Below are positions 9,206 through 63,097 of a DNA stretch of 64,000 nt, piece by piece (within the stretch, counting starts at the first letter, position 1; every line of letters begins with the position of its first letter). A program made the translations under genes and the position numbers. The stretch spans positions 124,001 to 188,000 of the forward strand of contig NZ_CP024965.1 of the NCBI RefSeq assembly GCF_002804005.1. The letters are read 5' to 3'. Under the pieces are notes generated by a model that was not told the DNA's origin, ran no database searches, and was given only the letters and a program-made list of their open reading frames with translations. Source of the DNA: Williamsoniiplasma somnilux. Its GTDB lineage: Bacteria > Bacillota_I > Bacilli_A > Mycoplasmatales > Mycoplasmataceae.

Positions 9206-9231
9206 TAAACTATTAAAGGTTGGATGCTAAA

Positions 9232-12200
9232 ATGAAATTTAAAATATTAATTAAGCAATCATTTCGAGATTTTAGATCCAAAATTATTATTTATTTAACT
9301 TTTACAGTTTTTTTAATCATTGTTTTATCAATGGTTGTTGGACTCTTTTCTTTTTCTTGAAATTTTAGCAATGAAGCAAGTAATATTAATTCGAATAAAC
9401 ACATTAATTCTTCAATTTCAACAATTCAGTATCGTTTACAAGAAGACGAAGGTATCGGTGACACTGATGATTATTTAATTGTTAAAGAAACTAATAGTGA
9501 TGATGATTTAGATTTAATAAAATATACAGAAAATTTAATTAAACAAAGTGGACTAACAACTTCAATTAGCGCCAAAGATTTAATTGCTGTTTCAGGAGTT
9601 TTTGCTGGTAAATTATTTCATTTAGACTCAATTAATCATGGAACACATCCTATAATTGATAAACACATAAAAGTTGTAAATATCACAAGAAATGATGCTG
9701 ATCCGTATCAAGAATATAATACATTAATAGATGCTATTTTAAACATACCAAATTATTTGGAAACAAATTTAACTTTGGGACAAAATGCTAATAATTTATT
9801 TTTAAATTATTTTCAATCAAAATTGTTAAATAAATCTGGCATTTCTTTAACAAGTAATAGTCGTGGTAAATTTAATTGGATTTCTCCCGAAAAATGAATG
9901 GCCAATTATTATAAAGAAGCACCATTACAAATTCAAAAATCGCAAGTGTATAAAACTTATATTTATGATCATCTTAATTTGAATGCAATGAATGTGAAGC
10001 AGAAAGATTTATTTGAGAAAGGAAAGTTTGCTTTTGCAACACCCAAAACTTTAGTTTCACAAAATCATAAAATAGGAGACATTGCTTTAATTTCCCCAAC
10101 AGAAGATGAATATTTAATTATGGGTACCGCAAATAATCCGTCAACTTTTTTTCAAGGAGTTTCTGATTTAAAATATTTTGTAACTTATCAAAATTCTTTC
10201 GGTCATGACTCACTAGGTAATGATAATTTTGGAAAATCTAGTTTTTATAGCAATAGAATTTTAGTTCGTGTTGATTCAGCTAAAAATAACAAGAGCAAAG
10301 CACAATCAATATTAGAAAATTTAGCAACAAAATATTTCAGTCCCTCAGTTAATGAACCTTCAAAAATTTTGCCAGATACTTATAATGAAAATAATTATCC
10401 TGAAACCAAAATTATTAAAGTTGTTGAAACATACAATATTTTGGTTTATATCATAGCGCTTATGATGTTGTTTTTATTATTTGTAGTTTTTTATTTCATT
10501 ACTCAACAAATTATTATTCTACAAAGAAGAACATTGTTTTTTTTAAAAGCAATGGGAGAGTCTAATTTTGTATTAACATTATTAACTACATTAGCTATTA
10601 TTACACCAATTATTATTTCAGCAGTTTTTGCTATTTTTGGCGGTGCTTTTATCCAAAACATGATGTTTAATGCTATTAAAGCCGAATTATCTATTGTTTC
10701 GTCTTTCTGAAACCTCAACTGATTTTTTTGATTAGCGTTACTAGCATCAATAATCATTATGTTTATTTCCTTCTTTTTAATAAATATGATTATAATTCAA
10801 TCTAAAAAATTAACTATACAAGGCATTGGGGTTGGTAAAGCACCTGGAAAAGTAGTTATTAAGTTTAAAAGAACAGTTTTAAGAAAAATTCCAAGCAAAT
10901 TAAATATTGGAATTTCGTTTGCTTTTAAAAATATTTATAAAAACTTAATATCATTAGTTGTTTTATCTATTTGTTTTTCGGTTATTATATTCGCCTTTCA
11001 ATTTAACAAGTCAGTCGAAACTAGTGCAGCTACTTTCGCAAAATGGAATGAACCATATAAATCTGTTTATGATAATTCAGAATTAGAATCATTTCACTTT
11101 GAAAATCAGCAACTAGTTGAAAATTTTCAAATTATAGAAACAAATAGTGTCGAGGACACTGACCTTAAACCAATAAGCAAAAATGATATTGAAATTGCAA
11201 ATTTACCTAATGGTTTTAAACATACTTATATTGAAAAAAGTTTTACAAAATTTTTATTAACAATTGAGGGAAAAGAATATATTGATCAAAAGATGAACGA
11301 AATAAATCAAAATAGACCAAATACTATAAGCGAAAACGACCGAGAAAAAGTTCATCAAATGCTTGATAGTTTAAGAACCTATAATGATTTATTGATTGCA
11401 GATTTTGGTTATGATGATGGATTTAATATTTTAATGGGAACGATGCTAAAACCCAAGGGAGTTCGTTCTTATTTGAGTATGTCTACAAATTATAATTTCA
11501 ATGGTGATAATAATGTCATCAAAACAATTGCAGTTTCTAATAAAGATTTAAATACTAAAAAACATTATCAATTAAATGAAATTAGTTCTAACAATTCTAT
11601 TACTGACAATATTAAAAACAATAGTTACAAATATGCAATTAATGTTAATGTTTCTCAAGCTTTTGCAAATTATTTTTATGCTAAAAAGGGAGATGAAATC
11701 GAATTAAGAATAAAGCAAATTACAAATTCAAATGATGTTCCATTAAAAATACTTGTTAAAGTTAATGCGATTATTAAAGAACAATCATTATTAAGAGAAA
11801 TTTATACAACAAAAGAAGATCTCTTTAATTATGTAATCAAGGAATCTGAAGCAGATGAAAATATCGAAACAACAGAAATGTACTTAAAGGTATTAGAAAT
11901 TTTAAATCAATCTTCGGATTATACTTTTGATAACACTGTTTATTCATATGATGAAGTTCCGTTTGGTTTACAAAATCTAACTGCACCTTATTACAAAAAT
12001 AGTGAAAATTCATCAGAAGATAATCGCGGTAATAGCATAATGGATTATGTATCACCAAAAGCAGAAGATTATTATTTAGAAATAAAAAACTCAATAATTC
12101 CATTTAACTATTTTGCTAAAAAAGTTTTGCTTAAATCTGCTCCACTTCTTGGTGTTATGAAAAACTTTATTTTTATATGTATTGTAATAGCTTTTGCTGT

Positions 12201-12546
12201 TTCATTAATTTTAACTGCCTTAATTCTTTTAGAAAATAAAGAAATCATTTTATTAATGAAATCTATGGGATATAAAACTTCTGAAGTTAATTGGTATTTA
12301 ATTACTGGTTATTTGTTGTCAGCGATTTTATCAATTGTTGCCTCAGCACTAATTGCTTACTATTTGTTAAAAGTTTGTTCACCGTTATTTTATGATAGTT
12401 TTAATGTTTCGATTAATTTTATTTGAAATGTAAAAATATTTTTGATTGCATTTGGACTTGCTGCAACATTTTGTTTAATTGTTTCATCTTCAGTGCTGTA
12501 CTTCACAAGACTGCAAAAACCGAAGAATGCTTTTGCAACATTATAA
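9232..12546 (+). CDS. Large FtsX/MacB-type ABC permease, 1104 aa
   Basis: A 1104-residue membrane protein with the layout of a duplicated FtsX domain. One transmembrane segment at about 18-42 precedes a large extracellular loop (43-400). Three segments follow at about 402-428, 446-473 and 499-522, with the cytoplasmic loop motif LFFLKAMGES between the first two. The pattern repeats: a segment at 572-591, a second big loop, then segments at 979-1000, 1024-1046 and 1069-1091, with LLMKSMGYKTSE as the matching loop. Such permeases need an ABC ATPase, but none is adjacent, so it must use one encoded elsewhere. The substrate is unknown. It is a single transcription unit between terminators. Confidence 0.85.
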
Positions 12547-55502: not shown

Positions 55503-56534
55503 ATGAGAGTTACCTTTGGTAGATATATTCCAACAAATTCAATAATTCATAAAATGGATCCAAGAATGAAATTGTTTATGATTTTATTATTAATTGTTTC
55601 AGTCTTTTTTCCAATTGGATTTACAGGATATATAATTTTATCAGCAACAATTTTAACTTTATTTGCTGCATCAAAATTAAGTTGAAGAATGTTATTAACT
55701 TTATTAGCTCCCGTAGGAATTATCTTCTTTGTTATTTTCCTTATTAATATTTTCATGATGCATCCAAGTGCTGATAATATTAATACTATTGTGACTAATG
55801 CATCTAGCATTCCAAATTTACAAAATTGAAACGTAACTTTTAGTAGTAGTGATTACATTTATGGTTTTATTGGTCCTAGTGCTTGAAGTAATGTTGATAT
55901 GAACAATTTAGATCCTAAAGTTGCTAGTGCATTTAGTCAAATGGTTTCTTTAGGGCATTTTGTTAAATGAAAAGTATTTTGAGTTAGTGAAAAAGCCTTA
56001 TACTCAGCATTTATGATGGGTTGAAGAATTTACTTAATGATAACTTTAACAACTATTTTAACGGGTTCAACTCAACCATTAGAGTTAACATTAGCAATCG
56101 AAGACTTGTTATATCCTTTAAAAATGATTGGAATTCCTATTTATATTCTTTCAATGATTATTTCAATTGCTCTACGTATGATTCCAACTTTAATTGATGA
56201 AGCAGGAAGAATTATGAAGGCTCAATCTTCAAGAGGAATTGATATTAAAAATGGAAAATCCAAAGACAAGGTTAAAGGTTTAACTTCATTAATTATTCCG
56301 CTATTAGTTTCTGCTTTCCAAAAAGCTGAAGATTTAGCCTATGCTATGGATGCTCGTGGGTATGATCCACATGCAAAAAGAACAAGATATATTCAATTTA
56401 AATTTAGAGGAATTGACGTGGCAATTTTTTTAGCAGGAATTGCTATTGCAACGTTTATTATTACTTATTCATTTGTGTTCCCCGTATCTGAAGCATTTTT
56501 ACATATTCCATATGTAGATCAATTATTAAGTTAA
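55503..56534 (+). CDS. ecfT: ECF transporter transmembrane protein T
   Basis: 343 residues, a little longer than common EcfT (~265). It begins FGRYIPTNSIIHKMDPRMKL, the family hallmark, followed by hydrophobic segments. The two coupling-helix motifs that touch the ATPases are SSRGID and DARGYDP. A polar insert between the early membrane segments (about residues 90-160) accounts for the extra length. It ends in hydrophobic segments, and its TAA overlaps the truA ATG by one base. No substrate-binding S gene lies in this cluster. Confidence 0.95.
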
Positions 56535-57277
56535 TGATGAGTTTATTATTAACACTAGCTTATGATGGTTCAGATTATAGTGGTTGAGTTATTCAAAAAA
56601 AACATCTAACCATTCAAGGGGAATTGAATAAAGCAATTAAAAATGTTATTAAAAATAATGATTTTAAAACAATAGGATCTTCAAAAACAGATGCTCATGT
56701 GCATGCAAGTGATCAAAAAGTTTTATTAACTATTAATTTTGAAATAAAAAATTTAGAACGTTTTCAACAAGCGCTAAATAAAGCTTTGTCTACAGCAATA
56801 CAAATTCTTTCTATTGAAATTGTTAGCTCTGACTTTAATATTCGTCATGCTCGACAAAAAGAATATGAGTATACTCTTAATGATGTTGACACTAATGTTT
56901 TTAGCGCTCGTTTTGAAGAACAATGAAAATACGGAAAAATTGATATTGCAAAATTACAAAGTATTTTAAAGGTTTTTATTGGTGAGCATGATTTTAAACT
57001 TTTTTCAGGTTTAAGTCTTGAAGAGCAAAAAACCATTACAACGGTACGTACAATTGAAAATATTAAAGTGTTAAGGATCGACAACAAGGTTAAAATCATT
57101 TTTAACGGTAAAGCTTTTATTCGTTATCAAATTAGAATGATTGTCGGTACTGCTCTTAAAGCATATTTGGGTAAAGTCTCGCTTTCAACCATTTCAGAAA
57201 AACTTCAGGGATCAGGAACTAAATTACCTTATGTAGCTAATGCTGCTGGTTTGTGTTTAAAGAAAATAATTTTTTAA
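56534..57277 (+). CDS. truA: tRNA pseudouridine synthase A
   Basis: 247 residues. TruA makes pseudouridine at positions 38-40 of tRNA anticodon arms. LTLAYDGSDYSGWVIQ starts the fold, and the catalytic Asp lies in SSKTDAHVHA (family form GRTDAGVHA, so two Gly/Arg positions have changed). FIRYQIRMIVGTAL is the second hallmark. The start can be ATG 56534, overlapping the ecfT stop, or ATG 56537 directly after it; the proteins differ by one Met. A terminator follows. Confidence 0.95.
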
Positions 57278-57311
57278 AAAATAAGTATTTTTAAACTTAT
57301 TTTTTATTTTT
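57276..57311 (+). terminator. Terminator after truA
   Basis: AAAAAATAAGT / ACTTATTTTTT with loop ATTTTTAA and further T. Confidence 0.85.
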
Positions 57312-57317
57312 TTATTG

Positions 57318-57326
57318 TATTATTAT
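57318..57326 (+). promoter_or_regulatory. -10 element of the small RNA gene
   Basis: Two overlapping TATTAT hexamers (57318-57323 and 57321-57326) end 6-9 bases before the G at 57332, the first base of the closing stem of the RNA described next. Confidence 0.5.
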
Positions 57327-57331
57327 TTTAT

Positions 57332-57492
57332 GAGAGACAAAGTTTAAAACAATGTCACGTTAGTTAAAAAATACTATTTTTAAATACTTTTGGATGATCT
57401 TCGGTGAGAAGGAAGTGTTTATTAATAATAATTTTTAACAAATTTAGTCTCTCAGTTAATATGAAAATCTCTATGAAAATAGAGTTTTTTTT
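57332..57492 (+). ncRNA. Probable structured small RNA or leader of unknown class
   Basis: A ~160-nt unit without ORF. GAGAGAC (57332-57338) pairs perfectly with GTCTCTC (57447-57453), closing a ~122-nt domain. Inside lie an AT-rich hairpin (TTAAAAA / TTTTTAA near 57364-57383) and a CTTC/GAAG hairpin near 57399-57411. A perfect terminator follows: CTCTAT (57469-57474), GAAA loop, ATAGAG (57479-57484), T8. The terminal stem, -10 element and terminator are spaced like an independent transcript or a riboswitch that ends transcription before the gene at 57536. I could not match it to SRP RNA, tmRNA, RNase P RNA, 6S or any riboswitch I know. Confidence 0.55.
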
Positions 57493-57535: not shown

Positions 57536-58267
57536 ATGGAAAGAAAAAAAACTTTAGTTGATAAAATTTCAATTTTCTTTACAGCTACATCGCTAGCTCA
57601 TTTTTTATTGGCGTTTTTAATCACTCCAGATAAATGATTTTATTCTTTTGCTTTTACAACTTTAAACTTAGGATTAATTTTTGCAACATTATTGTTTTCG
57701 TTAACAATTTTAATTTTGTTGTCAAAGATTTTAAAAAATTATCGATTAGGCATTAAAAATTTGGTTAAAGTTCAGATTTCAAAAAACTTTAAAATTGCAT
57801 TATTTTTATGAGCATTTGAAGTTTTAATAGAAATTATTATTTTCATTTCGTCTTTAACAAACCATATGGGAGAAATGAACTCTCTAATTGAATTAGGAAA
57901 AATGAATAATGAAGTTTTATATGCTGTTTATATTACTGAAATTGTTTCGATTTCACTAATGTTAGTAACAACAATCACTTCAACTGTCTTGCTATTATTA
58001 GCTTCAAAAGCACTTGCTTTTGTTTCTCAAAATGGTGATTTGGTAACTGGAGTTTGAACACTAGCTTATAACGTTTCTTTATTAATTAAAGATTTATTTA
58101 AAAAAAGAACCAAAGAAATTAAGGACATAGAAGAAAAAAAATCATTTAAAAATGATAATTTTGTTGTTGATAAATATAGTGACGTTGAATTAAAAATAAC
58201 AACAATAGAAAATCAAAAGCTAAAAGAAGCAAAAAAAGGTTTAACACCTCCAGACTATTTATTTTAA
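57536..58267 (+). CDS. Four-helix membrane protein, 243 aa
   Basis: 243 residues with four long hydrophobic segments at about 10-30, 37-63, 82-103 and 124-160, then a charged cytoplasmic tail of ~70 residues ending in GLTPPDYLF. No family recognised. It lies 44 bases after the small-RNA terminator and 31 bases before the 1416-residue FtsX-type permease, with which it probably forms an operon. It might be an accessory of that permease or controlled by the RNA upstream; both ideas rest on position only. Confidence 0.8.
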
Positions 58268-58298: not shown

Positions 58299-61200
58299 AT
58301 GAGAAAGAGCGTACATTTAACGTTCAAAAACTCAATTAAAAATACTTTTAGTAATTTTAGTCAACTTTTTGGGATGATAATGCTAGTTACAATGCTAGCT
58401 TTGGTCATCACTTTAATGACCTCTATTAATGATAGGGTATTGAGTAAACACGAACAATTAATTAAAGACTCGAATCAACACAATGTTGTTTTAAAAATGG
58501 ATCCTGACTTAGGAGCTATCGTTCAAGCTAATAGTTTAGGATACAAAACAACAAATAACACAGAAGCTCAACAGTATTTGGTTAAAGAATTGCAAAAAGC
58601 ATTTAAAGATGATGCGGATTTAGCTTTTAATTGATCACGTACAGAAGGAAGAGACTTCTCACAAACTTTTAACGAAAAAGGTCAACAAATGACAGTTAAA
58701 GCTGTCTCAAAATTAACAATTGATGGATCAACAGGGGTTGATAATTTAGTATTATCTTCTGGAAGAAAACCTGCTGATACTGATTTTGGATGACACGAAG
58801 TTGTTTTGGATTCAACTTTTGCTGAAATCAATAATATTCAAATTGGTTCGTTAATTAGAATGCAATTAGATGATTTTGGTGAACAATTTTTAGTAACTTC
58901 AGATAAAAATGCAAAAATGACTGAAGACCTTAAAAAAGACTTAGAAACTATTAAAAGTGAAGGAATTGCTAAAGCTGGGGGATTATACGAACGTTTATAT
59001 AGTAATTACGGATGATTCCAAGTTGTGGGGTTAGGAAATTCTGCTGACTTTATGGCTCCGGTTTTAACTCAAGCTGGAGTTTTACCTAATCGTGAAACTG
59101 AAGCTTTAGTATATTTACAACCACAAGCTATGGGAATAGTTAAAAACGATGCAAATGATGCTTTTCGTTTTGATATTTCTTTAGGAAGATTAGAACCAGC
59201 TTCAACAGCTGATCAAGAGGTTTTTTATTCATTCAAAACTATTAATGGAAAAGAACCTAGCTATGATCTTTTACAAAAAATGAATGATTACTTTAGAACT
59301 GAAATTTTAAAGAATAATGATAAATCTGCTAAATATATTTATGGACTTAGCGATCATGATTATGTTTATGTTTCACGTACTTCAATGATTGAATCAACAA
59401 TTAAAATTTATCAAATAATTGCCGGATGTATTTTGATTCTTATTTTTGGAGTGGCATTATACGTAATGGCATTAATTACTAAAAAACAAATTGAAAAAGC
59501 ACGTGGCCAAATTGGAGTTATGAAAGCTCTTGGTTACAAAAAAATTAGTATTATTACAAACTTTATTATGACACCATTAATTACTTCAATTATTGGGGGA
59601 GTTTTAGGATTTATAATTTCAATTGGAGTTCAATCTGTTCTTGTTAGTCAATTAAAATTATATTTCTCATTAGATATTGCTGCTTTCAGTTTTGACTGAG
59701 TAGGATTTTTAGTTGTTGTTATTTTCATGTGAGTAGCATTAACAGCAATTGCTTTCTTAATGGCTTGATTAATCTTAAGAGCATCAGCACTATCATTAAT
59801 TGCTGCCAACCAAAGCGCCAAAATTAATCGTTGAGGATTATTTGTTAAAAAAATTAATTTACGTCGTTCATTTGGTTCAAAATTAAGAACTGCTTTATTA
59901 ATTGATGCTGGTGGTAAAATGGCTGGTGTTGGATTAGTTGTTCTCTTCTCAACATTCTTAATGACGATTTCTTATTTGGCCCCAAATATATTAAACAAAT
60001 ATAAAACAATGTCGTTTAACGGAATTAATTATGAACAATTAGTCGAATATGCAGAACCGGTTGCTAATAATCCATATACATTCTTGAAAACTTATAATAA
60101 AAATTCAACTTACAATGGTAATGGTGAATTTGATAACTTTAAGTACTCTTCGAAACTTCAAGGAATAACTGGATTACCTTTAAATGAAGATGGTTCATAT
60201 GATATGGCAGCAATTACTAAAGCATATGTTGAAGGTAATGTGAGTTCAGACTTTTATTCACCATTTATTAAAACAGCAAATGAAATTCCGACAAGTCAAG
60301 AACTATCTTATGCAAATTCAAGAATGCTGGTTGGATCAAATGTTGCACTTTCTAATTCATTTCTTAAGTATATGGCACATTTAGCTCAACCTATGGACAT
60401 GAAAGCAGGGGGTCTAATAGGAATGATTGCTAATCGAATAATGTGAGGCACATTATCAAATGAATGAGTGGATAGAAGAGTTATGATTGAAGAGTTAAAA
60501 AATATTTATTCTAGTTCGTATTCAGATATGTCTAATATTAATGAAATAAATAAAATTTTTAATATTTTTCAACAATTTTATTTAAAATATATTAATAGTA
60601 TCGGGCTTACAATTTCTAATTTAAAAGGTGAAAATTTAAGTCAAGAAGAAATAATTTTAAGATTTAATAAAAATCAAAACAATTTACAAAATGAAAAATA
60701 TCTAACCGTTCTTGAAGAAGATAATGATTTTATGTTTAGCAAAGTTTATATGACTTCATTAGAACAAAATATAGTAAAAGATATTACTGTTAAAATTTCT
60801 GATGGAATAAATGATAAAAAGTTCTCAATACAAGCGCAGGATTCAGGATTTGATTTTTCTAGATATAATCCAGAAAATGAAACTAACCTAGAAATTAGAA
60901 ATAAAAATATGCAAATAGGTATTTATGAATTTTTAATATGATACTCAGCTATGTTTGGTTTAAGAGTTGATGAAGCAATCATACAAGCAGCATATTCTAG
61001 AGCTCCATATTTTGTTCAACAATATATGAAAAAAGATTGAGACTCAGAAACTTACACTCAGGCTTTCAATGTAATAAATTTTAATTTTGAAAGTGATGAA
61101 TTAGGTACTTTGTTAAGGGCTCGAAACAACAAATTAAATTTCAAAATTTTTGGAATCAGTGGAGAAAAAAATTTAATGCAACTTTTTGATAAAGATAAAG

Positions 61201-62549
61201 AACTAAACAAATTATTATATAAAAATAATAAGAAAGAAATTGTCATTAATAAAACACTTTCTAAAAAGTTAGATATCAAAAGCGGTGATTCAATTATTGT
61301 TGATATTGAACAAAATGTCTTAAAACACAATGGAAAAATTATAAATTTATCACAATGAAAAGATGAAAAACAAAACACAAATTTAGTGAATAAAACTTTG
61401 TTTGCACCAGCCTTAGGTGAGGTGCCACACTATGATAAAGAAATGGGATTTATTCAACAAAGCGCAATTAATCCTTTGCACTCAACAATTGTTGGAGAAA
61501 AAGCAGCTGATGCTAAAGAGGATATTAGTATCTATTCTAAAATAGATCCAATGAAATCTCCTCAAGTGCACTCACCGCTTTTTGAAGATTATCTAAAAGG
61601 TAACTGAGATAATTCAAAAGTTTCTCATTCTGAAGAATTTAAAGTTGTAGGAATTCATGAACAATATGGAGAACCAGCAGCATGAATTAATAATGATGTT
61701 GCTAATGAAATTTTAGGATACGATAAAGTTCAAGAATATCTATGAGAAAATCAATTTGTTCCGCAATTTGGGAATTTCTTCGAAAACCCTGATTTAGAAG
61801 AATATAAATTAAAAAATTATGATGCAAATAAATTTAAAAAATTTGCTGATTTTGAAACCAATTATTTAAAACCAGAAATTGACAGCAAAGAAGAGGGTGT
61901 TGCTCACAACATTTTAAAACTATTTCAAAAAGTTGACCCAGTCTTTAACTATAAATATTCAAAAGATCCAAACATGGGAGACCTGGATTCATTAATTAGT
62001 GTTTGAACGCAATTTGGTGATTACAACCCTACAACTATGAATGGTAATAACAAAGATGTTGAAGGAATTGGTCAATCAGGATTCTCGGGAATTGTTCCTG
62101 TTGAAATGTCAAAAGCAATTTTAAATCAAATTTCAAATGTAATTCTTTCAGTATTAGTTCTAATTATTTTATTAGTATTAGTATTAACTTTTGTAATCAT
62201 TTTATTAACCACATCATTGATAATTAGCGATAATGCTAAATTTATTTCAACAATGAAAGTGTTGGGTTACTCAAACAAATACATTGCCAAAAATATGTTA
62301 GGAATGTACTTCATCGTTATTGCTATTACCTTTGTAATTGGTTTTGTAGCAAGTTACTTATTATCAGCATTTATGATTAGTTTCTTAGCAAAAAATACCG
62401 CCTTAGTCTTACCATTTAGTTTCACTTGGTGAATTTTACCAGCAGTTATTTTATCTGTTATGGGAATTTATGCTGTAACAATTGCAGTTGGATTTAAATC
62501 AATTGCAAAAATTAACCCAACACACGTTTTACAAGCACAAACTATTTAA
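58299..62549 (+). CDS. Giant FtsX/MacB-type ABC permease, 1416 aa
   Basis: 1416 residues, the largest gene here, with two FtsX modules. First module: membrane segment 24-43, outer loop to ~370, segments 373-393, 424-449 and 467-493, with the loop IGVMKALGYKK. Second module: segment 541-560, a ~715-residue outer domain, then segments 1281-1308, 1333-1360 and 1377-1400, with FISTMKVLGYSNKY and ending KINPTHVLQAQTI. The conserved short loops are the ATPase contact sites of this family. No ATPase is adjacent. Within the second loop, bases 60480-61385 are much richer in A+T than the flanks. AGGAGGA precedes the ATG. Substrate unknown. Confidence 0.9.
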
Positions 62550-62589: not shown

Positions 62590-62641
62590 TATTTATGCTT
62601 ATACATTCAAGACCCCGGACAATGTCAAGGAGATATAGCAC

Positions 62642-63097
62642 ATGAAACAAACAACACTTATTTCTGCTAAAGATATTAAAAAAGATTGATATATCGTTGA
62701 TGCAGAAGGACAAACAGTGGGACGTTTAGCAACTCAAGTTGCCTTAATTTTAAGAGGTAAAAATAAAGTTACTTTTACACCCCACATTAATAACGGAGAT
62801 CACGTTATTATCATTAATGCTGAAAAAGCAATTTTTACAGGTAATAAAGAATCTGATAAAAACTACTATCACCACTCAATGCACCCAGGTGGATTGAGAA
62901 GAAGAAATGTTGCTACACAAAGAGAATTAGACGCAAGAAAAATTCTTGAACGTGCAATTAAATTAATGTTGCCAAAAAATGTGCAGGGAGCTAACCAATT
63001 TAGAGCTTTACATGTTTTTGCCGGAACAGAACACCCATATGCAGCTCAAAAACCAGAAGTATTAGTAATTAATACTAAAAAAGGAGAAACTAAATAA
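62642..63097 (+). CDS. rplM: 50S ribosomal protein L13
   Basis: 151 residues, complete. L13 is an early 50S assembly protein. [33 protein letters not shown], and HPGGLRRRN are typical. The first 25 residues include a UGA-Trp (in KKDWYIVD); I start at ATG 62642, preceded by AAGGAGA, rather than at any later GTG. The stop overlaps the rpsI ATG by one base. Confidence 0.98.

Follow-up and report, generated by a model that had tools for sequence, protein, structure and literature searches.

The spacer 3' of truA in Williamsoniiplasma somnilux (57318-57492, + strand) contains a structured RNA that is kept as a single copy across eight related genera and matches no Rfam 15 family at a meaningful score. 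The structure is no chance fold, because it is conserved with covariation in relatives. The RNA is probably an independent, single-copy small RNA of ~125-165 nt, which may act in trans as a structural RNA. All coordinates refer to the analysed window, a stretch of 64,000 nucleotides of Mollicute DNA (translation code 4, TGA = Trp) corresponding to positions 124001-188000 of the single 868,413-base chromosome.

The constant upstream neighbour of the RNA is truA (56534-57277, + strand, read in code 4; TIGR00071, E 1e-42). An AT-rich hairpin with a T run was predicted by folding at 57278-57316, between the truA stop and the small-RNA promoter; it is probably the truA terminator, so that truA probably ends upstream of the RNA start. 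A -10 promoter element without a clear -35, TATTATTAT, was located at 57318-57326 (+ strand), the TATTAT box being placed by inspection at 57318-57323 or, alternatively, at 57321-57326. The predicted transcript (57330-57492, + strand), with its start set from the -10 box and its end from the terminator, would measure ~160 nt, or ~125 nt without the terminator.

Within this transcript, the closing stem P1 is formed by GAGAGAC (57332-57338) and GTCTCTC (57447-57453), a 7-bp stem spanning 122 nt, and the P2/P3 helix by strands at 57363-57391 and 57411-57439; both helices are supported by covariation, and these and the elements named below are on the + strand. The overall shape is a rod, consisting of P1, an asymmetric bulge carrying the unpaired box A (AAAACAATGTCA, 57346-57357) on its 5' side, the long P2/P3 helix, and an apical internal loop (GGATGA / GAGAA, 57392-57410) enclosing a variable tip, UUCG in this copy. 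Box A is kept in alignments A1-A3, with the consensus AAAACAAURUCA, Apis-clade copies carrying AUAACGUCA or AUACACCA instead, and the two boxes of the apical loop, UUUUUGRAURA and GARAAGGAAA, are near invariant in the same alignments. An intrinsic terminator, CTCTAT-GAAA-ATAGAG-T8, was recognized from sequence and fold at 57469-57492, with the hairpin at 57469-57484 and eight T at 57485-57492.

The -10 box, the closing stem across 122 nt, the GAAA-capped terminator and the lack of an ORF in the spacer had all been listed in the first-pass annotation and were found as described; of the internal hairpins it proposed, the inner pairing is present, but this is really one long helix (P2/P3) capped by the conserved internal loop. 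The longest open frame starting inside the RNA on the + strand encodes 14 aa. A peptide-coding small mRNA was rejected, as the copies in relatives share no conserved short ORF and their longest frames are unlike one another in position, length and sequence.

The segment 57318-57492 folds at -41.2 kcal/mol, compared with -25.3 ± 3.34 kcal/mol for dinucleotide shuffles (z -4.76; 0 of 200 shuffles as low), and its reverse strand folds less well (z -3.55). Over 35 homologous cores (median length 127 nt, range 109-148) the mean z was -2.86, with values below -2 in 31. Covariation was scored on A2, in which 16 copies were aligned by sequence alone, and gave 0.526 against 0.194 ± 0.020 for shuffled alignments (0 of 500 as high) and at most 0.154 with slid partners, a comparison in which the true pairing is favoured, the structure having been derived from A2; 27 of 32 pairs showed changes on both sides. 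For A3, comprising 35 sequences fitted to the model, the score was 0.606 (shuffled 0.190 ± 0.013, 0 of 500 as high; slid, at most 0.155), with both-sided changes at 28 of 32 pairs. P1 was paired in 97.1% of the A3 cells, with both-sided changes at 6 of 6 modelled pairs, and P2/P3 in 83-86%, with such changes at 22 of 26 pairs. In 19 relatives outside the training set, whose rows were likewise aligned by the model, 86.9% of cells were paired, compared with 46-56% in slid versions, and P1 was paired in 110 of 114 cells. Compensatory changes, the absence of which had been named beforehand as evidence against a structured RNA, are therefore present, and the base pairs covary strongly.

An alternative hairpin was also observed in the window, where the 5' strand of P1 can pair with box A (57332-57357). 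In 19 of the 35 copies the 5' segment, as far as box A, is more stably folded than its shuffles (z below -1), mostly through this pairing, which is strong in Mesoplasma-type copies and missing from many Apis-clade copies. Being common yet not universal, the hairpin was left out of the claimed core; it could represent a folding intermediate, or else a switch.

A direct blastn search with the spacer against 60 relatives returned only AT-rich noise, and homologous copies were reached through synteny with truA, a gene found in all 60 genomes of the family and followed by a recognizable RNA in many genera. A covariance model (R1) built from the 16-copy alignment A2 gave exactly one match per genome in 36 of the 60 family genomes, with E-values down to 3e-18, while the order's 260 remaining genomes gave no match; the match in the window covers 57333-57452 (77.3 bits, E 5e-14). 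A second model (R2), built from 35 copies, had no match beyond the family among 395 genomes sampled from the class. Four matches that are weak by score, in G002 (E 0.003) and in G082, G077 and G072 (E 0.03-0.4), were counted as true copies because they lie directly after truA and have a good P1. With these four weak syntenic copies, 40 of the 60 family genomes carry the RNA, one copy each. The carriers are all genomes of g1, g2, g3, g4, g6, g8, g9 and g11, which make up eight genera of the Entomoplasma/Mesoplasma/Spiroplasma Apis-clade type; no genome of g5, g7, g10 or g12 is among them, and weak model matches in g7 genomes were treated as chance, lacking truA or an RNA-like context where read. 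When presence and absence were placed on the truA tree, some branches of which are long, four changes were required compared with 17 in shuffles, so presence of the RNA follows lineage.

The RNA probably has a transcription unit of its own, in which a promoter of sigma-70 type would lie at the base of P1 and an intrinsic terminator would follow that stem closely. A TANNNT box lies 3-13 nt 5' of P1 in 35 of 35 copies, a weak test given that -10-like boxes are frequent by chance in A+T-rich DNA (shuffled mean 21.7, maximum 31 of 35; 300 rounds). A terminator 3' of P1 was present in 33 of 35 copies, against a mean of 0.67 in shuffled downstream sequence. The start was placed at the base of P1 from the spacing described for Mesoplasma florum, in which transcription begins 6-7 nt downstream of a TAWAAT box that has no -35 partner (PMC7745072). 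The same study mentions, as possible sRNAs, putative non-coding transcription units whose intergenic start site is followed at once by a terminator, an arrangement predicted for the present RNA too, and its main text names no RNA at the truA locus (PMC7745072). It speaks against the proposed small RNA that in S. diminutum and S. taiwanense, both Apis-clade Spiroplasma, RNA-seq gave tmRNA and rnpB as the only ncRNAs highly expressed in the two species (PMC5726471); short RNAs may have been under-sampled there, because SRP RNA is likewise unnamed (PMC5726471).

Downstream of the RNA in the window stand a 243-aa membrane protein (57536-58267), for which no family scored above its cut-off, and a 1416-aa protein with an FtsX domain (58299-62549). 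Several relatives likewise have a protein of about the size of the 243-aa one between this RNA and FtsX. Another very large membrane protein, permease-like and of 1108 aa, is encoded at 9220-12546. truA adjoins the RNA in nearly all relatives, and the genes after the RNA differ: some copies are followed at once by the FtsX permease, others by a protein of 225-243 aa with FtsX behind it, by rplM-rpsI, or by a gene running in the opposite direction. The RNA of G076 and G008 precedes rplM and has no truA nearby. Varied in both identity and strand, these downstream genes fit an ancestral order truA-RNA-rplM into which other genes were inserted later, and a product working in trans.

A candidate ribosomal-protein leader, GACCCCGGACAATGTCAAGGAGATATAGCAC, was noted before rplM at 62590-62643, with no Rfam gathering match in the window, and in G069, G076, G008 and G014 an element resembling it, CCCCGGA..AAGGAG, also stands before rplM. 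A link between the RNA and this leader through a common ACAATGTCA (near 62620) was considered and dropped, since the leaders of those four genomes lack ACAATGTCA.

The spacer had been read at first pass as either a small RNA or a terminating riboswitch. A riboswitch or attenuator, in which the terminator ends the leader of the membrane-protein genes and is controlled by P1 or by the alternative 5' hairpin, would suit the position of the terminator immediately before the gene, and pairing of the 5' P1 strand with box A would open P1. The terminator is, however, a hairpin of its own and shares no bases with P1, so that opening of P1 would leave it in place, and the alternative hairpin is the very element that many Apis-clade copies lack. 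Among the relatives, the RNA is not tied to any single downstream gene or pathway, as a riboswitch would be: the FtsX permease, another membrane protein, rplM-rpsI and convergent genes take this place in turn, with truA constant, and a riboswitch for the downstream membrane proteins was rejected for this reason. A riboswitch or attenuator is accordingly very improbable. The small-RNA half of the first reading stands, with covariation, a promoter-like box and the terminator behind it; the variable and partly convergent downstream genes, the -10 box before P1 and the near-constant terminator together argue for an independent small RNA.

No known class was recognized in the spacer at first pass, and this was borne out by comparison with Rfam, where a strong match would have spoken against a new RNA and none occurred. 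A gathering search of the 64-kb window with Rfam 15 returned only a tRNA, a permissive search of the spacer gave nothing above noise (best 17.5 bits, cut-off 39), and a search of 19 loci with relatives, Apis-clade included, gave nothing relevant. RNase P RNA (RF00011; G000:542716-543050) and SRP RNA (RF00169; G000:865434-865523) were placed elsewhere, neither having a match at the truA locus. Bacterial SRP RNA resembles the present RNA in its small size, its hairpin-like form and its conserved apical internal loop, but the true SRP RNA is the one located elsewhere in the genome. The resemblance to 6S RNA (RF00013) is that of a small rod-like RNA with a closed stem, an internal bulge and its own terminator; the truA-linked RNA is shorter, its bulge is one-sided, and the 6S covariance model has no match here. 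As 6S RNA was not detected in the genome, a functional replacement that binds RNA polymerase might be imagined from the rod with its internal bulge and closed ends. Such a role is improbable, the bulge being strongly one-sided where 6S has a two-sided bubble, and no relative scanned gave a 6S score.

The MCS4 RNA of Mycoplasma capricolum is reportedly an abundant RNA of ~125 nt, described in 1993 as resembling U6 snRNA, and is said to have two gene copies. Mycoplasma capricolum belongs to the Mycoides clade, close to the clades holding the truA-linked RNA. That this RNA is the Entomoplasma counterpart of MCS4, in which case the RNA species would be known already and its family and role would not, is a possibility of some substance, though we lean against it. 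The length is near (core median 127 nt against ~125 nt) and the Mollicute clade related, and in comparison with human U6 the two most similar copies, G011 and G018, score a little higher than shuffles (z 1.4 and 1.8). U6 similarity is nevertheless at chance across the family (z -1.9 to 1.8; window z -1.5), and one copy per genome is present here instead of the two reported for MCS4. Identity with MCS4 would be compatible with an independent structural small RNA.

An antisense regulator that base-pairs with mRNAs, either by box A or by the GARAAGGAAA strand, would make use of the conserved unpaired boxes, and AAGGA resembles a Shine-Dalgarno sequence. Such a role appears unlikely, if less so than a replacement of 6S: complements of box A in the window are at chance (34 found, 32.4 expected), box A differs between clades, and a search of this genome gave no Hfq gene, so that the RNA would probably be independent of Hfq.

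The independent structural RNA acting in trans thus remains the preferred reading. Its transcription would start from the sigma-70 type promoter and end at the terminator described above, and it would involve no ligand sensing for the next gene. P1 and P2 would serve as a scaffold, and the two conserved loop modules may be the places at which a protein, the ribosome or RNA polymerase makes contact, as suggested by loop conservation. Conserved unpaired loops on a covarying scaffold, together with the single copy in each genome, suggest that the RNA is structural and binds a partner, and a protein- or ribosome-bound RNA is favoured with moderate confidence on these sequence features; action in trans as a structural RNA is the weaker part of the proposal. 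More tentatively still, and with somewhat less expectation than the link to MCS4, the RNA could be a previously unclassified housekeeping ribonucleoprotein RNA, present once per genome in the Apis and Entomoplasma/Mesoplasma clades, whose bacteria are near-minimal, and having its own undescribed protein or ribosome partner.

The carriers include Mesoplasma florum, a chassis for minimal-genome work, and a structured RNA without an Rfam family could be deleted unnoticed in genome design or could conceal an essential role. Near-minimal cells of this family seem to keep an RNA part that stands outside the named families. With the covariance model, the locus and the conserved loops, the function of the RNA becomes directly testable.
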